This document shows, piece by piece, positions 28,978-62,798 of a stretch of 64,000 bases of DNA. Source of the DNA: Halocafeteria seosinensis (Eukaryota; Sar; Bigyra; Bicosoecida); contig LVLI01000696.1 of NCBI GenBank assembly GCA_001687465.1, positions 1 to 64,000 on the forward strand. Direction: 5' to 3'. The position numbers and the translations under genes were made by a program. Numbering within the stretch: position 1 is the first letter of the stretch; the number at the start of each line of letters is the position of its first letter. Below the pieces are notes generated by a model. The model had not been told where the DNA came from. It saw only the letters and a program-made list of their open reading frames with translations, and made no database searches.

Positions 28978-29414
28978 GACAAATAGCCGTGACAAATAGC
29001 CCACCGTCGGGGAGTTGACCGCATCCTCTTAATGAGGAGCGGTATGCGCCCGTGTTAAGCAGCGACACTTTCACTCTGGGATGACTTTCAAGCACACGAA
29101 ATCTTCATGGTTACGGTACGTAGGGAGTCCTAATAGGGAGTAGGACGGCTAATACTAGTTTGGTATAATTCCGATATTCTTATTCATCTTGCCGTAGAAG
29201 ACTTGGAAGAGCATCGTTTCCATCAGTGGCTCGTCGCCTTTCGCTGCTGCAGTGCCGCAATGTGGCGACCTCACAAACCAAAAACCCCTATGGGCCGGGA
29301 AGCAACTGGCGTACATGGTTGTACCAGTTCAATCCCCTTCACTGCGTTGTACAAGACGGAAGCTTGCTGTAAAAAAGAGTGTGAGAAGTGTTGTCTGTAT
29401 TTAGCATTGGATTC
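28583..29414 (-). repeat. Right arm of the large inverted repeat
   Basis: Diverged reverse complement of 23375-24106. Relative to the left arm it carries about 110 extra bases at about 28945-29065: a (CA)n run, a duplicated TGACAAATAGCC word and an imperfect hairpin. The arm ends immediately upstream of the start codon of the FGKY-module gene, so it provides that gene's present 5' flank. Confidence 0.85.
28941..28974. repeat. (CA)n microsatellite
   Basis: A run of about 16 CA units interrupts the right inverted-repeat arm. The left arm has no counterpart, so it arose or expanded after duplication. Confidence 0.9.
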
Positions 29415-29430
29415 ACCAGTTGAGTTCAGC

Positions 29431-30576
29431 ATGAGCATCCCTCATCCCTGGATCGATACCACACCAGAAGCACAAGAGCAGCAAAACAGTCACATGAGCC
29501 ACAGCCAGGGCTGGGCAACCATGAGCACACATTATCCAGGATACGTAAATTCTCCCGGTGAAGTTCGCAGCGTTTCGGTCAGCGAAAGCAGCATTCAAAC
29601 GAGTGACAGAACAGGCTCGGCAGAGGAGGATGAGTGGGACCATGCAGGATGTCATTATGCAGCTGAAGTCTTGCAAAACCAACCAGCGGGAGCGGCCGGC
29701 ATCGCCATCAGCGCTAAGTCCACTGGTGTGGCTGCTGCTCAGCCCCGCACTGCAAAACGAACACTGGTCAGGAGGAAAAGAAGGCGAGAAGATAACGAGG
29801 ACTACTATGTAGAGCGGGAATTCAAATTCGGCAAGTACCGTGGACAAAGTGTCGGTAGGGTTGCAAGACAGCATCCTCAATACCTATATCGCTTCCTGTT
29901 GAACAAGGCAAACACGGACTTTGCTAGAACTCACTTTTTCAAGAACGCCTGGAGAGCACTTGCCCTTGAGAAGCAGCGAATGCCTTTCGGTAAATATTGT
30001 AATAAACGGGTTGACACGATTCATGAGTATGATCCCGAGTATACTCAGTGGTTGAAGCAACAGCACGATGGAAAGGAATGCACAGAGTGGCTTCATTTCA
30101 AATTGAAATTCCTCCTTGGAGAAGAAAGCCTCCCCTCCATCGATGATAAATCTGATGAGGTTCCTGATGGAGATTGTGATAGGACGCGAGTTTTTAACTT
30201 CGGGAAGCATCGAGGTCAAAATATTCAAACAGTGGCAGAGGAATATCCCGCATATCTGTACAAATTGCTGATGAACTCCGATGAGGAGTTTTCCAGGACG
30301 AACTTTTACCGAAATGCATGGCGCGTCCTTGCCTTTGGAGAGCAACGAATGCCATTCGGCAAGCACCGAGGCAAAGTCATCGATACTGTCTACCATTACC
30401 AACCTGACTACATCAAGTGGCTGAAGGAGCAACGTGAAGAAGAGAAGAGAGCTGACGACTGGCTTCTCTTCAAGCTGCGGTTCTTATTTGGCGAAGTAAC
30501 CCTACCTACCGTCGAACCTACACCCGAGAGTATACCGGATGAGTGTTCTTCGGACGACAATGCAGAGGATACCTAA
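29431..30576 (+). CDS. Protein with four tandem FGKY/FGKH modules
   Basis: Single exon, 381 residues, starting at MSIPHPWIDT; the frame stays open upstream into the repeat arm but that part looks non-coding. The N-terminal 115 residues are Ser/Gln-rich and end in a basic patch (RTLVRRKRRRE). Four modules follow, at about residues 131 (EFKFGKYRGQSVGRV), 184 (RMPFGKYCNKRVDTI), 253 (VFNFGKHRGQNIQTV) and 306 (RMPFGKHRGKVIDTV). Each continues with a P-x-Y-x-x-W/L helix (DPEYTQWLKQQ, QPDYIKWLKEQ). Modules 1 and 3, and 2 and 4, are closest, so a two-module unit was duplicated. The module resembles the short C-terminal domain of exonuclease-X-like proteins (DUF3820-like), suspected to bind nucleic acid; no nuclease domain is present here. 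The basic patch suggests nuclear location. Function unknown. Confidence 0.8.
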   Translation: MSIPHPWIDTTPEAQEQQNSHMSHSQGWATMSTHYPGYVNSPGEVRSVSVSESSIQTSDRTGSAEEDEWDHAGCHYAAEVLQNQPAGAAGIAISAKSTGVAAAQPRTAKRTLVRRKRRREDNEDYYVEREFKFGKYRGQSVGRVARQHPQYLYRFLLNKANTDFARTHFFKNAWRALALEKQRMPFGKYCNKRVDTIHEYDPEYTQWLKQQHDGKECTEWLHFKLKFLLGEESLPSIDDKSDEVPDGDCDRTRVFNFGKHRGQNIQTVAEEYPAYLYKLLMNSDEEFSRTNFYRNAWRVLAFGEQRMPFGKHRGKVIDTVYHYQPDYIKWLKEQREEEKRADDWLLFKLRFLFGEVTLPTVEPTPESIPDECSSDDNAEDT

Positions 30577-50489: not shown

Positions 50490-51330
50490 TGAAGGGACCT
50501 AACAATGCACGGAAAACTTGACAATGTCACACAGTAAGCGCTGAGTACCCAGATACTCACGCCCGCTTCAACCACGGCGACTTCCATTCACCACCCTATT
50601 ACGGGTAGATAGTTCTTTCTGTCTCATGTTCCGAAACAAAAGCTTGATGGATCCAAAGATCCAGAACTTAACTTCATTCCAGTTTGAATCACTGGAAAGT
50701 TGATTCCACGTCGACGACCGGAGATCCCGCGTCGAGCCTCGCGACCTCGGGCAATCGGAGAACACACCTGCTGTCGCTTTCTCACTCTCACAAGCAATAT
50801 CAAGGATTGTCAGTACTCCGACGTCGCAGAGACCTGCCTCCACCGCCTTCGACTTTTTCAAAGTTTGTGTTTGGACTGTTTCTTGGTTCCGTTTTGAGGA
50901 CAGTCACCTTCTTGGCCTCGTATCCTGCACATTGTCTTGTTGGATTCCCAAGAATTGGTTCAACACTCCCCAGAGAATCAGTTCTGAAGCTTTCTCGAAA
51001 CACTACAAAGTATGTCCCTGCTATGACAAATTCTAATTGTCCATGTGAATCAGGGGATGTGGAATTCAGGGCCATTTGGGTGCTGTATAACCCAAGAACA
51101 GTCTGCGGGAAGAAACAGGGTCCTCCCGCATAGTGTGAGGAACTGGCATCATCATGAATTCACGTTCTGCGGTTGGTAGGGGCCTTTCTTGAGACCCTTC
51201 CACATTTTTTATTTTTGTTAAGACAGAGCTCTGGAGTTTGTCGATCCACCTCGATGGAATGGTATCGCAGGTAACTTTAGTGGAGCATTGTACATAACTG
51301 TAACGGATTCACTACAGTACCACCCTCATC
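50490..51330. other. Intergenic region, divergent promoters
   Basis: About 840 bases between the divergent LRR and TPR genes. Several short frames exist on both strands without domains. No RNA gene or repeat recognised. Confidence 0.5.
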
Positions 51331-54300
51331 ATGGATCCCAACACATTTAGCAAACTTTTCGCTCTAAGCCAGCTGGAATCATTGGGAGCGAACGCGTCAA
51401 GTCTTTTCGAATGCGGAAACGAATTTTTCAAGGAGGGCAACTATGCCAAAGCAGTTGAAAGCTGGGATTATGCTTTACTCCAAGGGGGACCACACCCTAG
51501 CATATACTTTAACAAATCGCTTGCCTTGTACAATCTGAAACGATACCATGACGCTCTTGAAACCATCAATAAAGCTTTGGAATTGTGTCCGAGTCAGTCC
51601 GGCGCTCACATGAATAAGGCGAATATCCTGGTTGCCTTAGAAAGGTACGACGACGCTGTTCAAGAGTACCAAGCAGAACCTCAAAGGACGAACGAGCTTT
51701 GGCAAAAACTGGCAATGTGCTATAAGCAAATGCAAGCACCACAACGTGCACTGGGTTGCTATGACATGATTTTGTCAAACAATCCGAGGTCATCCGCCAC
51801 CTACACCAACAAGGGTGACGCCCTAAATTTGTTGGGTCGCTATCAGGACGCGGAGCGATGTCTGACAACTGCCCTTCGGCTTGATCCTTTCAATGCTGTC
51901 GCTTATGATAACAAAGCTTATTCTTTACATCAGCAGGGCAGGTATGATGACGCCATGCAGTTTGCATGGAAGAGTATTCAATTCGGAGAAACTGCTTGGT
52001 CCCTCATAATCATTGCGAGCTGTTTAAGCCGCAAGCATGAATGGGATACGGCACGAAAATCTCTAGCGAAAGCAGCCACGCTTCTCCAACAGGGAAAGTG
52101 CTTTCAAGGAGCATCAAGTCCACAAGAAAGGGAGGAAGCAAAGAAGCTTTTCGAAGAAGTTGCGCAGAGAGTATACGGCTCGTCAGAGACCGCTACTGGC
52201 TCTGGAAGCAGCTCCTCTAATGCTCCCAACGAAGAAACTAGCTCCATGAAGTGTAATTACAATCATACAACCAACTCAGCCCGCAGTGTTCCAAGCGAGC
52301 AGCAGGCTAAAGCGGTAGATCTGACGAACCGTGGCATGAACGCAGAGGACAATGGAGAACTAATGGCGGCTTTAGAGCTATTTGAGAAGGCAATTCGGCT
52401 TCATCCGGAATATGCTTGGGCATACGAAGGAAGAGCAAGTGTATTGTTTAAATTAGGGAATTTCAAGTCTGCGAAAGATTCGTTTCAATGTGCTTTGAAA
52501 TACGATCCAAGGAATGATGCTCTATATGTGGGAATTGCCCGCTGCCTGAACTCCATGGAGGAACATTTCAAAGCGCAAGAATACTGCGATAAGGCGATTG
52601 CTCTTGAAAGTAGCAACACTGAGGCATATGTTCAAAAAGGTCGAGCACAGAAATTGTTAGGGAAAAACAAAGATGCAATTAAACAGTTCGATCAGGCATT
52701 AAGGAATGATCCCAAGTGCGTTGAGGCTTTTCGTGGCAAATGTCAAGCCCATCTCAACCTGCAGAATTGGAGTGAAGCCTTAGCGAACTGTGAGAGCGCC
52801 TTAAAGGTCGACAATAAGGTGCCATCTGTCATGGAAGAGAAGGCCTGTATTTTCGAAAAAATGGGTGAATTAGGAAAGGCTTTGCGATGCTATGAAGAGT
52901 CGGTTCAACTCGACTCAAGCCGACCAGAATCCTTGATCGGCCAAGGATCTGTTCTTGCCCAGCTAAATAAACATCATGATGCCATTAAGTGCTATGACCG
53001 CGCAATAGAGTTGGACAAAGATCGTAGCGTTGCATATACGAGGAAAGGTGAGAGTTTACAATCTTTGGGTAAGATGCAAGAGGCGATGAATTGCTACGAA
53101 AGTGCGTTAAACATCGATAAGAATGATGGGTATGCGAAGCGAATGAAGGCTCTATGTAAAGAGAAATTATCTAAAGAAACCGTCATATCGTACGATTCGT
53201 CTGCGAGACAGGTACCTGAGTATCTCTCTGACGAGTCAGTGCGTCAGGCGTCAGAATTACTGAACAAAGGTATCACGTTGGATGATGAAGGCAAACGAGA
53301 AAATGCCCTACAGTGCTTGGAGGAGTCAGTACGCTTAAACCCGCGATACTGGTATGGTTTTAAAATCCAAGGGGATGTCTTGTCGACATTGCAACGGTTT
53401 TCGGAAGCAATAGAGATGTACGGCAAAGCATTGAAACTGGATCCTCGTAACGCCGACGTTATGATTGGTAAAAGTAATGCTCTGCTTAGTCTTGGAAACC
53501 TCAACGAGGCTCTCCGCTCCGCCAACCAAGCTATACAAGAAGACAATCATTGCTCCATGGCACACGTCGCCCGAGCTGCTGCTTTAGTAAAACTCGGCGA
53601 GTACAGCAAAGCATTGGAATCTGCTACTAGAGCTGTCGATGTCGACCCGTCCTGCGTCGATGCTATGTACAACCAGGCTAGAGCTTTGAAAGGACTCGCA
53701 CGGTACGAAGAAGCAGTGGACAAGTTTAACAATGTTATCGAAAAAGATTCCGGTAGAATTCCCGCCCGATTAAATAAAGGCACTACGCTGATAAAGCAAT
53801 CCAAGTACACTAAAGCAGTGAAGTGCTTTGATGAGGTAATCGAAATCGAGCCAGAGAACTCCACAGCCCATTCCAATAAAGGGACAGCTCTTGCGTGGTT
53901 GGAGCGGTATCAGGAAGCGTTTGATTCCTACAGTGAAGCCCTGAGAATCAAACCATCTGATTCTACTGCCAAGAAGAACAAAGACTGGGTACTCCAGTAC
54001 TTGCCTGAATCCGCCCAAACCACTACTCAACCAGCATCGGCGCAACGCACAGGTGGGAACGATGGTGGTAGTAGTCATTCCGCGGAAGAACTCGACCGAT
54101 TTCGCTTGATGCTATCCCAACATGCCCAAACGCTAGAGCAAGCCGTATCCCGTAGCGAACTGACTGGAACGCTGTATCGTGAAGCCCAGGAGGAAGAAAT
54201 TCGGCATATTGAGGAAACTGCTATACTCCGAGACTTTTACCATGGGTTGAAGTCAACACTGTTTGACTATTTCATGACTGCGGTAGTCATACAAAGTGGG

Positions 54301-55605
54301 CACGTTACACCCTGTTCCAGTGAAAGCAAGACAGCGGTAGGCCTCTCTGTGGTAGAGTTCCTACTGGGAGCAGTTCCGATTGTCAGCCACATCTCGAAAG
54401 GAGTCAATGGACTTTTGAGGAAATCTCTAAGTATTAAAGCAGAAAGTGGTTTAAACAACCTACTTCGTTTGGAAGCCGATCACACTAGGATTAAGGGTAC
54501 AGTTGAAGAGATTAGTCGAGGGTTTACGCTAGCACTAGCAGACAAGATACCCGACAAGTTGCCAGACGAACAAGGTTTGTGGGAGAAGCTCAAATCGTGT
54601 TATAAGAAAATGTTTTACTCTCAGTTGCCTGAGAGTATTCATCATGCGGAAGGCTCCTCCCATGGGCTTGCGATTGTGAAGGAGTGCATGAAGGGTCATT
54701 TATCCAAAGAAGACTTTACGACGGAACATCTGTTGCGGGTGCTCATCGGGGAGCAAGCCGTAAATGCTCTTGAAGCAAAAAGAGGGAGCATGACGACGCC
54801 GGCGGAAAAAGCAACTTGGGGTAGAAGTCCGTCCCGTAATCCCGACTCTCCAGGAGAGACTTCGACTACAATAGCACCCCAAACAGATACCATCGCCGAA
54901 GTCCGATACTTGCGTCAACAATTAGAGGAAATGAAAGAGAGAGTTCCTGCAGAATCCGCGTCGACCAGCGATACCGAAGTCAAAAACATGATGGAAGAAA
55001 TTGCTACCTTAAAGAAACAACTGGCGCAATTGAACAAACGCGATGGCGACGAGGATGCCGAAGGAGATGTGGAGTGTCAGCAGATGCTCAGGAAGAGCGA
55101 AAACTCCAGCAAGTCTGGGAATTCCTCCAACTCTGGAAGCAGCGTCGCCACAAGGAGCGAAATTTCAGCGATATGGGCGGCGTTAAGGGAAATGCGAATC
55201 ACAGTAACACAAATGGCTGAAGCGCCGAGCCTCCGTAAAGACTTTGTTTCAATGCGTTTTGAGGGAGCAATTATTCCGTTTTCGCAGGCAACTGCGTTGC
55301 TGAAGGAGCTTGTAGATGAGCAGCATCCAGAGGGAGATCACCGTTATGTTGAAGGTTCCGCTTCATTTCGCCCTGGCAAACGATCCATCGCTGACGAACT
55401 CAAGGGCACCTCCGCGAAACCTCCAGGTACAGTAACAGGAACTGCAATTTTAAATTTCTTGTCCAACAAATTGCCAGACGTCGCTCCCGAGAAAGCTTTA
55501 GAAAAGTTTAAAAGGTACTTGCCTGACGATGGGACAGAAGATTTGTATGCTCAAGATACCTCTGACTCCGACAAGCTTGGGATGCTTTGGGATTCGTTAA
55601 AGTGA
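51331..55605 (+). CDS. Giant TPR-repeat protein with unknown C-terminal half
   Basis: Single exon of 4.3 kb, 1424 residues. Residues about 20-280, 325-610 and 635-890 are arrays of 34-residue tetratricopeptide repeats (for example YDDAVQEYQAE, HHDAIKCYDRAIELDKDRSV, YTKAVKCFDEVIEIEPENST), roughly 20 in total, split by two short linkers rich in Ser/Asn/Thr. After a linker, residues about 930-1160 form a helical domain I do not recognise (LRDFYHGLKSTLFDYFMTAV, VEFLLGAVPIVSHISKGVNG). A coiled coil (about 1190-1245: VRYLRQQLEEMKERV) and a final globular segment (about 1270-1424) follow. TPRs scaffold protein complexes. No signal peptide or membrane segment is clear. The first ATG fits the start of the first TPR helix. 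Frame and codon use look intact throughout. Confidence 0.88.
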   Translation: MDPNTFSKLFALSQLESLGANASSLFECGNEFFKEGNYAKAVESWDYALLQGGPHPSIYFNKSLALYNLKRYHDALETINKALELCPSQSGAHMNKANILVALERYDDAVQEYQAEPQRTNELWQKLAMCYKQMQAPQRALGCYDMILSNNPRSSATYTNKGDALNLLGRYQDAERCLTTALRLDPFNAVAYDNKAYSLHQQGRYDDAMQFAWKSIQFGETAWSLIIIASCLSRKHEWDTARKSLAKAATLLQQGKCFQGASSPQEREEAKKLFEEVAQRVYGSSETATGSGSSSSNAPNEETSSMKCNYNHTTNSARSVPSEQQAKAVDLTNRGMNAEDNGELMAALELFEKAIRLHPEYAWAYEGRASVLFKLGNFKSAKDSFQCALKYDPRNDALYVGIARCLNSMEEHFKAQEYCDKAIALESSNTEAYVQKGRAQKLLGKNKDAIKQFDQALRNDPKCVEAFRGKCQAHLNLQNWSEALANCESALKVDNKVPSVMEEKACIFEKMGELGKALRCYEESVQLDSSRPESLIGQGSVLAQLNKHHDAIKCYDRAIELDKDRSVAYTRKGESLQSLGKMQEAMNCYESALNIDKNDGYAKRMKALCKEKLSKETVISYDSSARQVPEYLSDESVRQASELLNKGITLDDEGKRENALQCLEESVRLNPRYWYGFKIQGDVLSTLQRFSEAIEMYGKALKLDPRNADVMIGKSNALLSLGNLNEALRSANQAIQEDNHCSMAHVARAAALVKLGEYSKALESATRAVDVDPSCVDAMYNQARALKGLARYEEAVDKFNNVIEKDSGRIPARLNKGTTLIKQSKYTKAVKCFDEVIEIEPENSTAHSNKGTALAWLERYQEAFDSYSEALRIKPSDSTAKKNKDWVLQYLPESAQTTTQPASAQRTGGNDGGSSHSAEELDRFRLMLSQHAQTLEQAVSRSELTGTLYREAQEEEIRHIEETAILRDFYHGLKSTLFDYFMTAVVIQSGHVTPCSSESKTAVGLSVVEFLLGAVPIVSHISKGVNGLLRKSLSIKAESGLNNLLRLEADHTRIKGTVEEISRGFTLALADKIPDKLPDEQGLWEKLKSCYKKMFYSQLPESIHHAEGSSHGLAIVKECMKGHLSKEDFTTEHLLRVLIGEQAVNALEAKRGSMTTPAEKATWGRSPSRNPDSPGETSTTIAPQTDTIAEVRYLRQQLEEMKERVPAESASTSDTEVKNMMEEIATLKKQLAQLNKRDGDEDAEGDVECQQMLRKSENSSKSGNSSNSGSSVATRSEISAIWAALREMRITVTQMAEAPSLRKDFVSMRFEGAIIPFSQATALLKELVDEQHPEGDHRYVEGSASFRPGKRSIADELKGTSAKPPGTVTGTAILNFLSNKLPDVAPEKALEKFKRYLPDDGTEDLYAQDTSDSDKLGMLWDSLK

Positions 55606-57190: not shown

Positions 57191-58176
57191 ATGACGGAAG
57201 AACAGCCTCGAGATTACGTAGGTGGCTCCTTTATTCACACACCTCCCCGATGATACATGACGCTCTCTCTCTCTCTCTCGTGTGTCTCTGCAGTGTATCG
57301 TGCTGTTTGCGTCTATGTCCTCCAACATGGAGCACAAAGCCAACACGAACCAATTATTGCAGCTCTTTGACAGTACGTACACCTTCGATGCGCGTGTTTT
57401 TTCTTCCTATTCCTCCTTGATGGCCTATGATGCAATGATTCTGACTGCAGCACACAAGATAGAGTACGAACTGCTAGATGGAGCTGATACGGGGAATGCA
57501 GAACTTCGAAATCAGTATGTAGAGTGTGCATTACCAACGAGCAATTTTTTTATTTGGGAGGTGAGATTCGTGGGTGTTTGTCGATGCGACACGATGGAAT
57601 GCAGTTTGTTTGGCCTCTCTGGACTGCGGGGCCAATATCCTCAAGTGTTTCTGTGTGATAAGCCATGCAAAGATGTGACTAAAACATCTGCTTGGAAATT
57701 CGTAGGAGGATGGCAAACGATACAGGTAAGTTTCATCCGCTATTCAACGGGGGAGGTATGACGGGGTATATACATTCGATAGATGTGATATGATACAGAG
57801 AATGAATGAAAATAACTACGAATTGAAAGAATTCGACGAAGCTTTTAAAAATGTAAGGAGGTTGGATAAGGTAGCAACCCAGGCTACGGGCGTGGTTCGA
57901 CCTGACGCAGCTGGACCGGAAGCAGACTATACCCCGTCAACCAACACTCAGCCCCAGCAGTCATCCAAGACAAATAGAAGCCATCAGCGAGAAGAAACTA
58001 CAATTTCGTTTGATGAGTTCGAGAAGCGTCGTCCAGCCGCAGGACGCTCTATCGTGGATTGGGAGCAGCATAGTGACGAGGAAGGAGATCCATTTTGGTA
58101 CAATAGCCATACCGGAGAAAGCAGTTGGTATCCGCCTGTGGGATGGGAAGAATATTGCAAGCGCACTGCTACCTAG
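57191..58176 (+). CDS. SH3BGR/glutaredoxin-like protein with WW domain
   Basis: Five exons, join(57191..57217, 57294..57372, 57451..57514, 57605..57725, 57799..58176), 222 residues. Spliced, residues 10-100 read as a thioredoxin-fold SH3-binding glutaredoxin-like domain: CIVLFASMSSNMEHKANTNQ, then HKIEYELLDGADTGNAELRN, LFGLSGLRGQYPQVFL, KFVGGWQTIQRMNENNYEL. The usual redox CxxC is absent, as in the SH3BGR family. Residues about 125-185 are a Gln/Ser-rich linker. Residues about 183-218 are a WW domain (DWEQHSDEEGDPFWYNSHTG, then ESSWYPPVGWEE), which binds Pro-rich peptides. The first exon encodes only nine residues. An adaptor role is inferred from the domain pair. Confidence 0.85.
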
Positions 58177-58253: not shown

Positions 58254-61200
58254 TCAAATGAGACCGCCCAGTTCTTTACTGTCTAATTTCTCTAACTCAG
58301 CCTCTGCTTCTTCGCTACCCAATGCCGCTGCAAACGATAAGTCTCGAATGCCTTTCCTTACATCAACTTCTAAATTCAGCTGCCCGCACAGCAGAAAGCC
58401 ACCGAGATCGTTGGCTGCCGCAGCCTTCTCCGCATACTCTCTGATGACTGCGTTCACCCGTGACTCTTTCATATCAGACATATGGTTTACAGTCCGTGGA
58501 TACGCCGTTTCTGCCTGATCCAGGTACTCGCGAGGTGAAGCACTCTCGTCCACCACGCCTTCTCTAAGTAGCATTGCTACCTTATATTGGGCACGTGCAA
58601 GGCCAGTATCAGCTGCTTTCTTGTACCATTCATAAGCTTTGTTCATATCCTGACTGCAATCAGTTCCACTCTCGTACTTGGAACCCATTTCATACTGGGC
58701 ATGAGGATTGTCATGTTCTAGGGCGGTTTTAAACCAATAGCTGGCTTTTTCGTCATCTGGTTTGACCCCAAAATTGCTATTACCCTCGTATGCTTTCCAC
58801 AACCGGTACTCGGCTTCTGGGTCTTTTAGCTTCGCAGCTTCGAGTAAAAGATTCCAAGCTCGTTGGCACTCTTCAGGCCCTCCGATTTTTTGCAGCAGGG
58901 AAGACAAAGCAAGCATAGATGGAGTATGGTTCTTCCTGGCGGCTTCCTCGTAGTAGCTTTGAGCCTTCTTCCAATCAGAAGCCACGATAACAGTATCGCC
59001 GTCGTTGCAACAACGACCTTCCTCATAGATTTGACCAACGTGGCGGTAACAATCTAACGGGCAGTCGCTATCTCTCAGGGCCTCCCGGTATATCTTCAAT
59101 GCCCTTTCTGGATCGCGTTTTATACCTTCGCCGCCTGTGTCAAGAATTCCCGCTAGCCTACACTTTGCGTCAACGTGGCCACTCTTCGCTGCCCGCTCGT
59201 AGTATTCAGCTGCTAGCTTCTTGTTCTTTTTCCCGTTCGTAGCTTGCTCATGCGCCAAACCTTCCTCATACAGACTCTCTTTGATTTTTTCATCCGTCTT
59301 CTGGAACCTTCGTAAGTCATTCATAAGACTTACTACTTCAGGGCCCTGTCTCGCGGAAGCATTTTCCACCGTATCCATGGCATTCTCGGCCTTAAGATGC
59401 AGTAAGTGAGACTCAATTGTACGGTTGATAGTCTTCACCCAGTCATCCCTCTCATGCAAGCTCGAGGCACGCATGATGAAACTCCTACCGCCGTTAGTTA
59501 AGACCTCAAAACAAACGTCGTCGTCAAGCTTTTTAGCTTTCTTGATATACCTCAGGGGAATTTCTCGTTTTAGCTCGTATGAAACAGGATCGGAATACTT
59601 TAAGACCTGTCCGGTAAGCTCGAAGTACCTCTCTTTCCAGTCTCTATTAAACTTCCCCCGTTTTTCCAGATTCCCCGTAAAGCGAGGTCGCTTTTCTTCC
59701 TGCCTTAGCTCCTGCAATCGCTGTTTAGCGGTACTCAAATCATCATGGCCAAGGGTCTTCGTCACCCATTCATGTTGCAGCATTTCCGCAGCTGTCATAC
59801 GTCCCGCTGGGTCCACAACCAATAACTTGCTGATGAAATCTTTTGCAGCCTTACTTATTCTGTCCCAATAAGGAGAGTCAAAATAATAAATACCCTGCTG
59901 AATTTTCATATACTGGTTCTTCGGGTGCCGATCCTGAAACGGTCCATAGCCTGAAAGGAGAACGAATGTAACCACACCCAGGCTCCAACAGTCAACCTTC
60001 TCGTTGTACGCACGTCCCCGAAGCACTTCAGGTGCCACATACGAAGGAGATCCACAAGGAGTATCCAACATTTTTTTGGGAACAACGGTGGCGAACCCCA
60101 TGTCTGCAATTTTTATTGACTGAGACTTGGATATGTCATCTAGCAAGATGTTCTCCGGCTTTAGGTCCCGGTGAACAATGCCTCGTTCGTGCATGTAGCA
60201 AATCGCGTCGGCAACTGTCTTGACTACATCGCGCGCTTCAGATTCCTTGTATGTTCGCTTCTGTACTATTTGGTCGAAGAGCTCTCCGCCCTTAACCAAT
60301 TCTGTTACTAGGACGTAGAATTCGCTCTCGTCATAAAATGCCCGGAATCGAACAATATTCGGATGGTCTAACCGCTTCATCACTTTGACCTCTCGGAAAA
60401 AGCTGTACTTGACGGTTTCTTCAAGATCTGCCTTTTTAACAAACTTAACAGCTACGTCCTCTTGAGACTCAATATCTAGTGCTTTATATACACTACTATA
60501 GCCACCCGTTCCCAAATGCTCTTTCGTACTGAATCTGTCGCTAAAACTTCCCGGTGTGATGATATCATCCAAACTCCGAGAGCTGATGGAGCGCAGGAGG
60601 TTTTCTCGAACAGCTTCCGAAGCTTGTTTGTCTTCAACGCTTTGTTCTTCTTCGATCACATCTTCACTCGATAGATGAGTGGCATTGATACTAATACTGT
60701 ATGAGTCTTTCCGAGTATCAGACGACATATCGGAGGATCCTGTTTCCTCCGGGCAATTTATGCTTTCAAAAAGGCGCTGATACGCAGTGGTAACTTCTTC
60801 CGGAATAGAAGATTGGAAACGTTTGTTATGGTCAAGAATTGCTTCTACAATCTCGCTTTTTGTATATCGAGTCAAAGGCTCTTCCTTGCAGCACTCCGTC
60901 AGGTCCTCGACCGCCTTGACAAGAGAGGTGGTGTCTCGTACGTCTTTGAGACGACGAATAGAGTCGTGTAACGCCTTGGAACCTGCGATTCAAAATGGTC
61001 TATAACTGTCCGTCTCTAAGAGGGGAGGATTGGATTTCTTACGTAAGCCAGGATCTTGTCGCAAGGTTGAAATTACTCGTAGCCTGACATCATTCATCGC
61101 AAGTTCTTGATCTGTCTCCGCGAGAGCAATATCCTTGTTCAGAAGGTTGTATGACTGTTGCCAGAAGATGAGGAAATTATGTAAAATGGAACTGAGCGAC

Positions 61201-62641
61201 TGCATGCACGCTTTAGTCGACATACCTCTTCCCCAATTATGCCTTGATGAAATAGTCGAGATACTTCCCTTGATAGCTGAGCAGAACGAGAGGGTCCCTT
61301 GTAGGCACTACGCAGCGCACTGACCCATCGATTCCTTGAGGCGTTACTTGGAGCGCATATCTTATACGTTCGATCTTTTTTTGTATGTATAAAAAACAAG
61401 CCCTGTTCTGACTTCGGCTCTACTTTGTAAATGTCGACAAGTTCTATTTCGCCGCGACACTTCGACCGGTCTTCATCGTCATAGTAGAGCAGTCTGGAAG
61501 GCTTCAAGACGAAAAGCCGTTTCTTCCAACTCTTGACGTAATAACCCTGTCGGTCAAACAAGAAGTAGCACGACGCATAATTTGGTAGGCCCAACAGCAA
61601 CAGTCTTTACTGCTACGCACTTCCTTCTGTAACACCTCTGTTAGCTGGGTAGGCTCCTCTTCGACCTGCACGTCTAAGAACTGTGGTTTATCATCCCCAC
61701 TGAGCGAGTCATCATTCTTTTCTGTCTTAGATTTGGCGCCACTGCTCGCATGTAAAGCATCAAAATTTGGGCGCTTAGCCGCGTTCGATTGCGCAGGTTC
61801 TTGCGGACTGGTGCGCTCTTTGAGAAAACGTGCTGTCTCAACATGGCTGTTCTTAGAGGCGTAGTTGAGAGGAGTAAAGTTTTTCTGAGCAAAAAAAATA
61901 AATTTCAAGGATTTGGAAGCCCCGGTAGAGGAAAATAACTAACCACGTTTACGTACCTCATCCAACGTATCAGCAGGAACACCACATTCATCAACCAGGT
62001 ACTTGACGATTTCCAAATAACCGCCTTCTGCAGCAACATGAATGGCTTCCATTCCGGATTCCTGTGCATTATTATACGTAAGCACAAGCGAAAACATATA
62101 CACCGATTCGTCCAATATGACGTAGGTCCGTAAAACGTACCGTCTTACGTTCGTCCGGTTTCATGCCATACGATTCCACAAGGTATCGAACAATATCCAG
62201 GTGTGCATTTCGGCACCCTTGATGCAGGGCCGTATTACCATCGTCATCAGGTACTGATGGATCCAATCCGTAGTTCTCTATCCCTTGCTTAAGCACTTCC
62301 AAATGGCCTTCTCGGGCGGCTATGTGGAGAAACACTGGGTTCTGAGAGCTCACGTTAAGTTCCTCCACGAGATATTTGACGATATGGGAGAACCCTCCAG
62401 ACACTGCCGCTTCTAATGCTTCACTCTTCTTCTTGTCGTTGGCATCAGAAAGCAGTTGTTTAAGCTGTTCTAATGAAATATCCCCCTGTTCAATGGCCGC
62501 ATGGAGGTCCTCCGTGAGTCCCTCCTCCTTCTCTGTCGATTCCCCATCCCCTTTGTCAGCATGAGGACTCTCCTCGTGCTCCTCCTGCTGACTATGGCGG
62601 TGCTGATCAGCATCAGTCTCTGCTTCCTTCCCCTCTGACAT
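58254..62641 (-). CDS. Ankyrin-PH-protein kinase-PH-Sel1 fusion protein
   Basis: Six exons on the minus strand, complement(join(58254..60982, 61043..61154, 61226..61546, 61621..61884, 61957..62061, 62141..62641)), 1343 residues; every junction keeps frame and domain continuity. Order: acidic N-terminus; about five ankyrin repeats (about 45-235); PH domain 1 (about 288-385, GYYVKSWKKRLFVLKPSRLL); helical linker; Ser/Thr kinase (about 583-841); PH domain 2 (about 870-970, GNLEKRGKFNRDWKERYFEL); about seven Sel1 repeats (about 1000-1310). The kinase has the glycine loop GTGGYSSVY, VAVKF Lys (about 614), HRDLKPEN (about 705) and APE, and looks CAMK-like, but DFG is DMG (about 728). There are no EF-hands. 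PH domains suggest recruitment to phosphoinositide membranes; ankyrin and Sel1 repeats suggest scaffolding. I know of no standard kinase with this layout. Confidence 0.87.
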
Positions 62642-62798
62642 TATGCAACAATGGCCCCCATCGAGTCACAACTTGAAGTTCCCGCAACAATCCATTCGCC
62701 ACGCTACACACTACACACGACCTCACCATAGATAGCCTAGTATACATGATTTATTAGGTTTGTTCTTGGTTTCAGCGTCATTGGAGAAGGGAAAGAGA
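62642..62798. promoter_or_regulatory. Short divergent promoter region
   Basis: Only 157 bases separate the start codons of the kinase fusion gene (minus) and the coiled-coil protein gene (plus), so they very likely share a bidirectional promoter. No named element is visible. Confidence 0.5.

Follow-up and report, generated by a model that had tools for sequence, protein, structure and literature searches.

A single gene of Halocafeteria seosinensis joins ankyrin repeats, two PH domains, a CAMK-type kinase and Sel1 repeats

Results

One gene of six exons spans 58254..62641

The window (the whole 64,000-nucleotide stretch of DNA that was analysed, from the bicosoecid stramenopile Halocafeteria seosinensis) contains at 58254..62641 (-) one gene of six exons and five introns, with a product of 1343 residues. 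Re-splicing of the window sequence gave the five in-phase GT-AG junctions of the original prediction: every intron begins with GT and ends with AG (5/5), and the spliced reading frame runs uninterrupted to a TGA whose end is position 58254. The model was compared with P0001, a EukProt protein of 1343 aa that comes from contig gb/GECG01009464.1 (.p1) and is labelled 'ORF type:complete'. The parts of the gene, in the order of transcription, are:

62141..62641 (-), exon 1: residues 1-167, with the start codon, an acidic N-terminus and ankyrin repeats; P0001 is identical except at residue 98
62062..62140 (-), intron 1: 79 bp, GTACGT...GCACAG, phase 0; missing from P0001
61957..62061 (-), exon 2: residues 168-202, ankyrin repeat
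61885..61956 (-), intron 2: 72 bp, phase 0
61621..61884 (-), exon 3: residues 203-290, in which the ankyrin region ends, plus linker; the Ank_2 stretch 167-225 reaches into this exon
61547..61620 (-), intron 3: 74 bp, phase 0
61226..61546 (-), exon 4: residues 291-397, almost the whole first PH domain (PH1; Pfam PH 287-371)
61155..61225 (-), intron 4: 71 bp, phase 0
61043..61154 (-), exon 5: residues 398-434 and one further base, linker
60983..61042 (-), intron 5: 60 bp, phase 1
58254..60982 (-), exon 6: residues 435-1343 and the stop codon, with a helical linker, the kinase, the second PH domain (PH2) and Sel1 repeats

P0001 and the spliced model are identical at 1338/1343 residues in a gap-free alignment. 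A single base change suffices for each of the five differences (positions 98, 196, 509, 1017 and 1334), and P0001 is therefore a separately obtained sequence or allele. Accessions such as GECG01009464.1, which start with G, we take to be transcriptome assemblies. Since P0001 has the same length as the model and aligns without a gap, all five joins are present in one transcript-derived sequence, including those at 60.98-61.15 and 61.55-61.62 kb, across which a cDNA check had been proposed. On this transcript-derived evidence 58254-62641 is a single gene in which an ankyrin/PH half is joined to a kinase/PH/Sel1 half, as predicted, and the length of 1343 residues was reached both by splicing and by P0001.

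Several other reading frames of the window were noted. A plus-strand frame that encodes a WW domain stops at 58176, 77 bases off the stop of the kinase gene, and another plus-strand frame, opening at 62736, has no Pfam match and is only a candidate gene. Elsewhere in the window, 51304-55602 (+) holds an open frame of 1433 aa that is dense in TPR repeats and in which the best stretches of 25 of the 29 matching Pfam families all end before residue 890, and 29137-30576 (+) holds an ORF of 479 aa in which, by eye, a segment starting like 'FGKYRGQSV' recurs.

Domain order and repeats

Pfam searches of the single frames and of P0001 gave the same order, namely ankyrin repeats, PH, protein kinase, PH and Sel1, which upholds the prediction of a kinase flanked by PH domains, with repeats at each end of the protein. 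The domain search proposed for the model was run on P0001, where all five elements were recovered (Pkinase, E 1.2e-76; PH, E 1.9e-29 in 2 stretches; Ank_2, E 3.4e-29 in 3 stretches; Sel1, E 3.3e-19). The ankyrin repeats occupy roughly residues 75-226 and are followed by PH1, whose open-frame match to PF00169 has an E-value of 1.2e-15. The domains encoded by exon 6 are:

59763..60530 (-), CAMK-type protein kinase domain: residues 586-841; PF00069, E 5.9e-77
59415..59678 (-), PH2: residues 870-957; PF00169, E 4.4e-13
58278..59282 (-), Sel1-type helical repeats: residues 1002-1336, both limits approximate; PF08238, E 8.8e-21; helices in the AlphaFold model

PH1 ends 214 residues ahead of the kinase, and PH2 begins 28 residues behind it. 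At an E cutoff of 0.01, P0001 matched 20 Pfam families, none of them an EF-hand. An AlphaFold model of the last exon covers residues 436-1343 and is of use only for the kinase and for some of the repeats. Here, the Sel1 region forms a run of helices, with a block pLDDT of 52-93 to about residue 1260 and of 43-73 thereafter. Helices are also predicted before the kinase at residues 436-510 (60756-60980, -; block pLDDT 64-86), in a stretch that is kept in the homologue P0002 (described below) and to which no Pfam family was assigned in the single frames or in P0001.

The kinase domain

The expectation of a CAMK-like kinase was confirmed by both sequence and fold. The PDB sequences closest to the kinase are those of CaMK4, CaMK1 and CDPK, which come first among the best 60 of 517, and the folds closest to the AlphaFold kinase are those of CaMKII and CDPK, with TMt up to 0.95 (best 50 rows). 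The catalytic residues K614, E632, D707 (HRD) and D728 (DMG) are all present, and their columns are invariant across 24 aligned sequences. The domain is thus of the CAMK-group serine/threonine type with intact catalytic residues, and kinase activity is predicted from its sequence.

In a tree of 46 rows, none of them named CaMK1/4, CDPK or PITG, the kinase is paired with that of P0002 (support 100/100) and is set apart from a large MARK/NUAK/par-1 block. It adjoins rows named RSK/MSK (96/51) and falls into the same group as a paralogue on contig C172 of its own genome, in a part of the tree with several weak forks and long branches. The group that includes C172 and C65 has a support of 93/87, and within it C172 is joined to C65 (94/78) and is not paired with the window kinase.

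The two PH domains

PH1 and PH2 share 29% identity over 82 residues, and are therefore not recent duplicates. The solved structures nearest to PH1 (PDB, 32 sequences) are those of myosin X, SBF1, KIAA0640 and pleckstrin 2, followed by others including TAPP1 and the cytohesins/GRP1; those nearest to PH2 (14 sequences) are TAPP1, which is the best, ARAP3 and centaurin-delta 1, followed by others including pleckstrin and GRP1. Several of the myosin X, SBF1, TAPP1, GRP1 and cytohesin PH domains bind phosphoinositides. A K-x(n)-K/R-x-R pattern in the first two strands is the motif of phosphoinositide-binding PH domains, and such a basic strand motif is found in both PH1 and PH2 (residues 289-300 and 875-886, respectively). 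Judged from these sequence features, recruitment to the membrane by phosphoinositides through the PH domains is likely. In the AlphaFold model PH2 has a pLDDT of about 31-64 and the model has a pTM of 0.42, so that the model is uninformative on contact between PH2 and the kinase.

The exon that encodes PH1 is flanked on both sides by phase 0 introns. It is thus of the kind that can be moved without breaking the reading frame, and possibly a unit of exon shuffling, although shuffling at this locus would be a reading of the exon structure.

A metagenomic homologue of the kinase half

A protein search in which 7998 candidates were scored gave 615 that passed; among the best 120 of these 615 matches, in a table read by eye, a kinase and PF00169 occurred together only in P0001 and P0002. 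The latter is an ENA metagenome protein of 935 aa from a contig of 82,463 bases, with 54% identity over 67% of the window protein. It carries the helical linker, kinase, PH domain and Sel1 repeats in the same order, and differs in that it is known only for the part matching exon 6 and in that more of its Sel1 repeats are clear (6 individually passing Pfam stretches vs 1 in P0001). Across the PH2 stretch and its flanks the identity of P0002 with P0001 is 69%, indicating that PH2 is conserved beside the kinase. The start of the P0002 ORF matches position 439, four residues into exon 6, as would be expected of an intron-blind gene caller that read only the last exon.

When residues 400-585 of P0002, which span its kinase-PH2 junction, served as the query, 2 of 2866 candidates passed, and these were again P0001 and P0002. 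A query of 150 residues from PH1 and the linker gave 10 candidates, none of which passed, so in the searches made no homologue of the upstream half was found and the ankyrin/PH1 half was seen in one organism only; viral contigs searched with P0002 gave no match. These protein searches require shared five-residue words and similar length, and distant or short relatives may escape them. As far as such word-based searches tell, the arrangement looks lineage-restricted, in keeping with the lineage-specific protein that had been proposed.

Paralogues in the same genome

Searching the genome with P0001 gave 44 matches. Apart from those to the gene itself (C421), they are to kinase domains, except for four to ankyrin repeats, all in a single frame of C161. 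No second full copy was found in the genome among the 35 of 253 candidates scored, although any such copy should have headed the ranking. C172 carries the closest kinase paralogue, which scored 202 bits vs 148 for the next and lies in a frame of 1370 aa (L021:787-4896) where a weak EF-hand match is followed by a PH domain and the kinase (ten kinase frames were domain-scanned). Its PH domain matches PH1 at 32% identity over 93 columns (4e-7) and PH2 at 23% over 30 (4e-4). When the coordinates of 141 kinase and 63 PH matches were compared by eye, frames combining the two were found on C421, C172 and C84; the kinase and PH searches were made exon by exon and the counts are lower bounds. The C84 frame (C84:43431-47690; L031:1932-6191) is 1420 aa long.

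Two genes for ectoine synthase (EctC, PF06339) were also observed in the genome, at C33:55312-55779 (+) and C93:18298-18788 (-), each matched in three neighbouring pieces. Both look as if they were split by introns, and they represent an osmolyte gene of bacterial type within a eukaryotic genome. Ectoine genes have been reported in H. seosinensis (PMC5924519), and intron-containing ectoine genes in halophilic protists (PMC5796728). Possession of ectoine genes is shared by further protists and is not peculiar to this species.

Discussion

A proposed lipid-recruited CAMK kinase

Our main reading, to which we give a probability of roughly one half, is that the gene encodes a lipid-recruited CAMK kinase that is restrained by PH2 and was built by domain shuffling. 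According to this model, PH1 and PH2 would bind phosphoinositides jointly and thereby bring the kinase to the membrane, PH2, lying close behind the kinase, would help to keep it off until lipid is bound, and the ankyrin and Sel1 ends would hold partners or substrates. In CaM kinases an autoinhibitory segment sits just behind the kinase domain, which is the place of PH2 here. The protein would have arisen by shuffling of domains onto a CAMK kinase, perhaps from a stramenopile stock of PH-bearing CAMK kinases. The signalling 'hub' of the original prediction would be a function read from the PH sequences.

A more specific version holds that PH2 replaces the calcium/calmodulin switch, so that PH2 restrains the kinase and the reading of phosphoinositides by PH1 and PH2 together releases it. 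Such lipid gating we consider quite improbable; were it true, this would be a CAMK kinase that responds to lipid instead of calcium. In H. seosinensis at high salt, five genes for calcium-dependent kinases and one for a calmodulin-dependent kinase were reported to be raised, and phosphatidylinositol synthase to be repressed 3.1-fold in the salt response (PMC5447177).

Alternative readings

The coordinates might instead hold two or three adjacent genes, one with the ankyrin/PH part and one with kinase/PH/Sel1, that were wrongly merged through splice calls or an assembly error. The start of P0002 at a position matching residue 439, just within exon 6, would suit such a reading, and there may be a shorter gene of the kinase/PH/Sel1 type elsewhere; yet that start is also what would result from calling ORFs on unspliced DNA, beginning in the last exon, and P0001, labelled as complete and as long as the model, crosses the five joins without a gap. 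P0001 contradicts two genes at this locus, and we regard a false merger of any kind as extremely improbable. That the PH domains serve chiefly in protein binding or in docking to the kinase, making the product a cytosolic scaffold kinase instead of a membrane-recruited one, is a more serious proposal, which we nevertheless think unlikely. Ankyrin and Sel1 repeats are folds that bind proteins, many PH domains are without specific lipid binding, and an alignment of PH1 with GRP1 would put a tyrosine at one of the basic ligand positions. Against this stand the strand of the K-x(n)-K-x-R type, which is kept in both PH domains, and the phosphoinositide binders among their nearest solved relatives.

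It is tentatively possible, with the odds still against it, that the protein is a plain member of the stramenopile PH-CAMK family, of the PITG_08008/PITG_06259 type, with decorated ends. The best kinase match in its own genome, on C172, has just such an EF-hand/PH/kinase order, and the PH domain of that paralogue is nearer to PH1 than to PH2. This simpler descent has to contend with the absence of an EF-hand from the window protein, with the 214 residues that part PH1 from the kinase, where on C172 the PH domain adjoins it, with the second PH domain after the kinase, and with a tree that does not pair the window and C172 kinases. We prefer the lipid-recruited kinase restrained by PH2, and consider its wider meaning to be modest for now, with lipid binding a prediction. 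What the transcript-backed arrangement of repeats, PH, CAMK kinase, PH and repeats does extend is the parts list of stramenopile signalling, and it suggests a route by which CAMK kinases of poorly sampled protists could pass from calcium to lipid control.

Comparison with known kinases

In Phytophthora infestans, PITG_08008 and PITG_06259 are PH-bearing kinases of the CAMK group; in PITG_08008 the PH domain lies between EF-hands and kinase, the structure was confirmed by RT-PCR and the nearest kinase is also PH-bearing (PMC3019232). The table for this species places PH domains on nine kinases (AGC, CAMK and CMGC) and ankyrin repeats on three (AGC and TKL), and the term 'sel1' is absent from the main text of the paper (PMC3019232). 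PH-bearing CAMK kinases being known in stramenopiles, what is new in the window gene is how its domains are arranged and not the type of kinase. The original prediction had called the whole arrangement unfamiliar: this does not hold for a PH domain on a CAMK kinase, which the same source already describes (PMC3019232), but it stands for the second PH domain after the kinase and for the ankyrin and Sel1 ends, and in these the novelty lies. Within open-licence PMC, no paper was found that joins kinome, Sel1, ankyrin and PH domain, nor one that joins Sel1, kinase domain, PH domain, ankyrin repeat and protist.

The window protein resembles PITG_08008 and PITG_06259 as a stramenopile CAMK-group kinase with a PH domain, PH1 lies N-terminal to the kinase as in the PITG_08008 type, and the EF-hand/PH/kinase order of PITG_08008 recurs in the C172 paralogue. 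In contrast to PITG_08008, compared here by its description and not by its sequence, the window protein is without EF-hands and has PH1 far from the kinase, and to the plan of both PITG kinases it adds a second PH domain soon after the kinase, an ankyrin N-terminus and a Sel1 C-terminus. With CaMK1/CaMK4 and the CDPKs it shares the sequence and fold of the kinase domain, whereas what follows its kinase is a PH domain and Sel1 repeats. The EF-hands of CDPKs are classically C-terminal, and the window protein differs from these kinases also in having no EF-hand. Finally, a PH domain recruits the kinase to the membrane in PDK1, GRK2 and Akt, and lies after the kinase in PDK1 and GRK2; these are AGC kinases with one PH domain, whereas the window protein is of the CAMK type with two PH domains and repeats.
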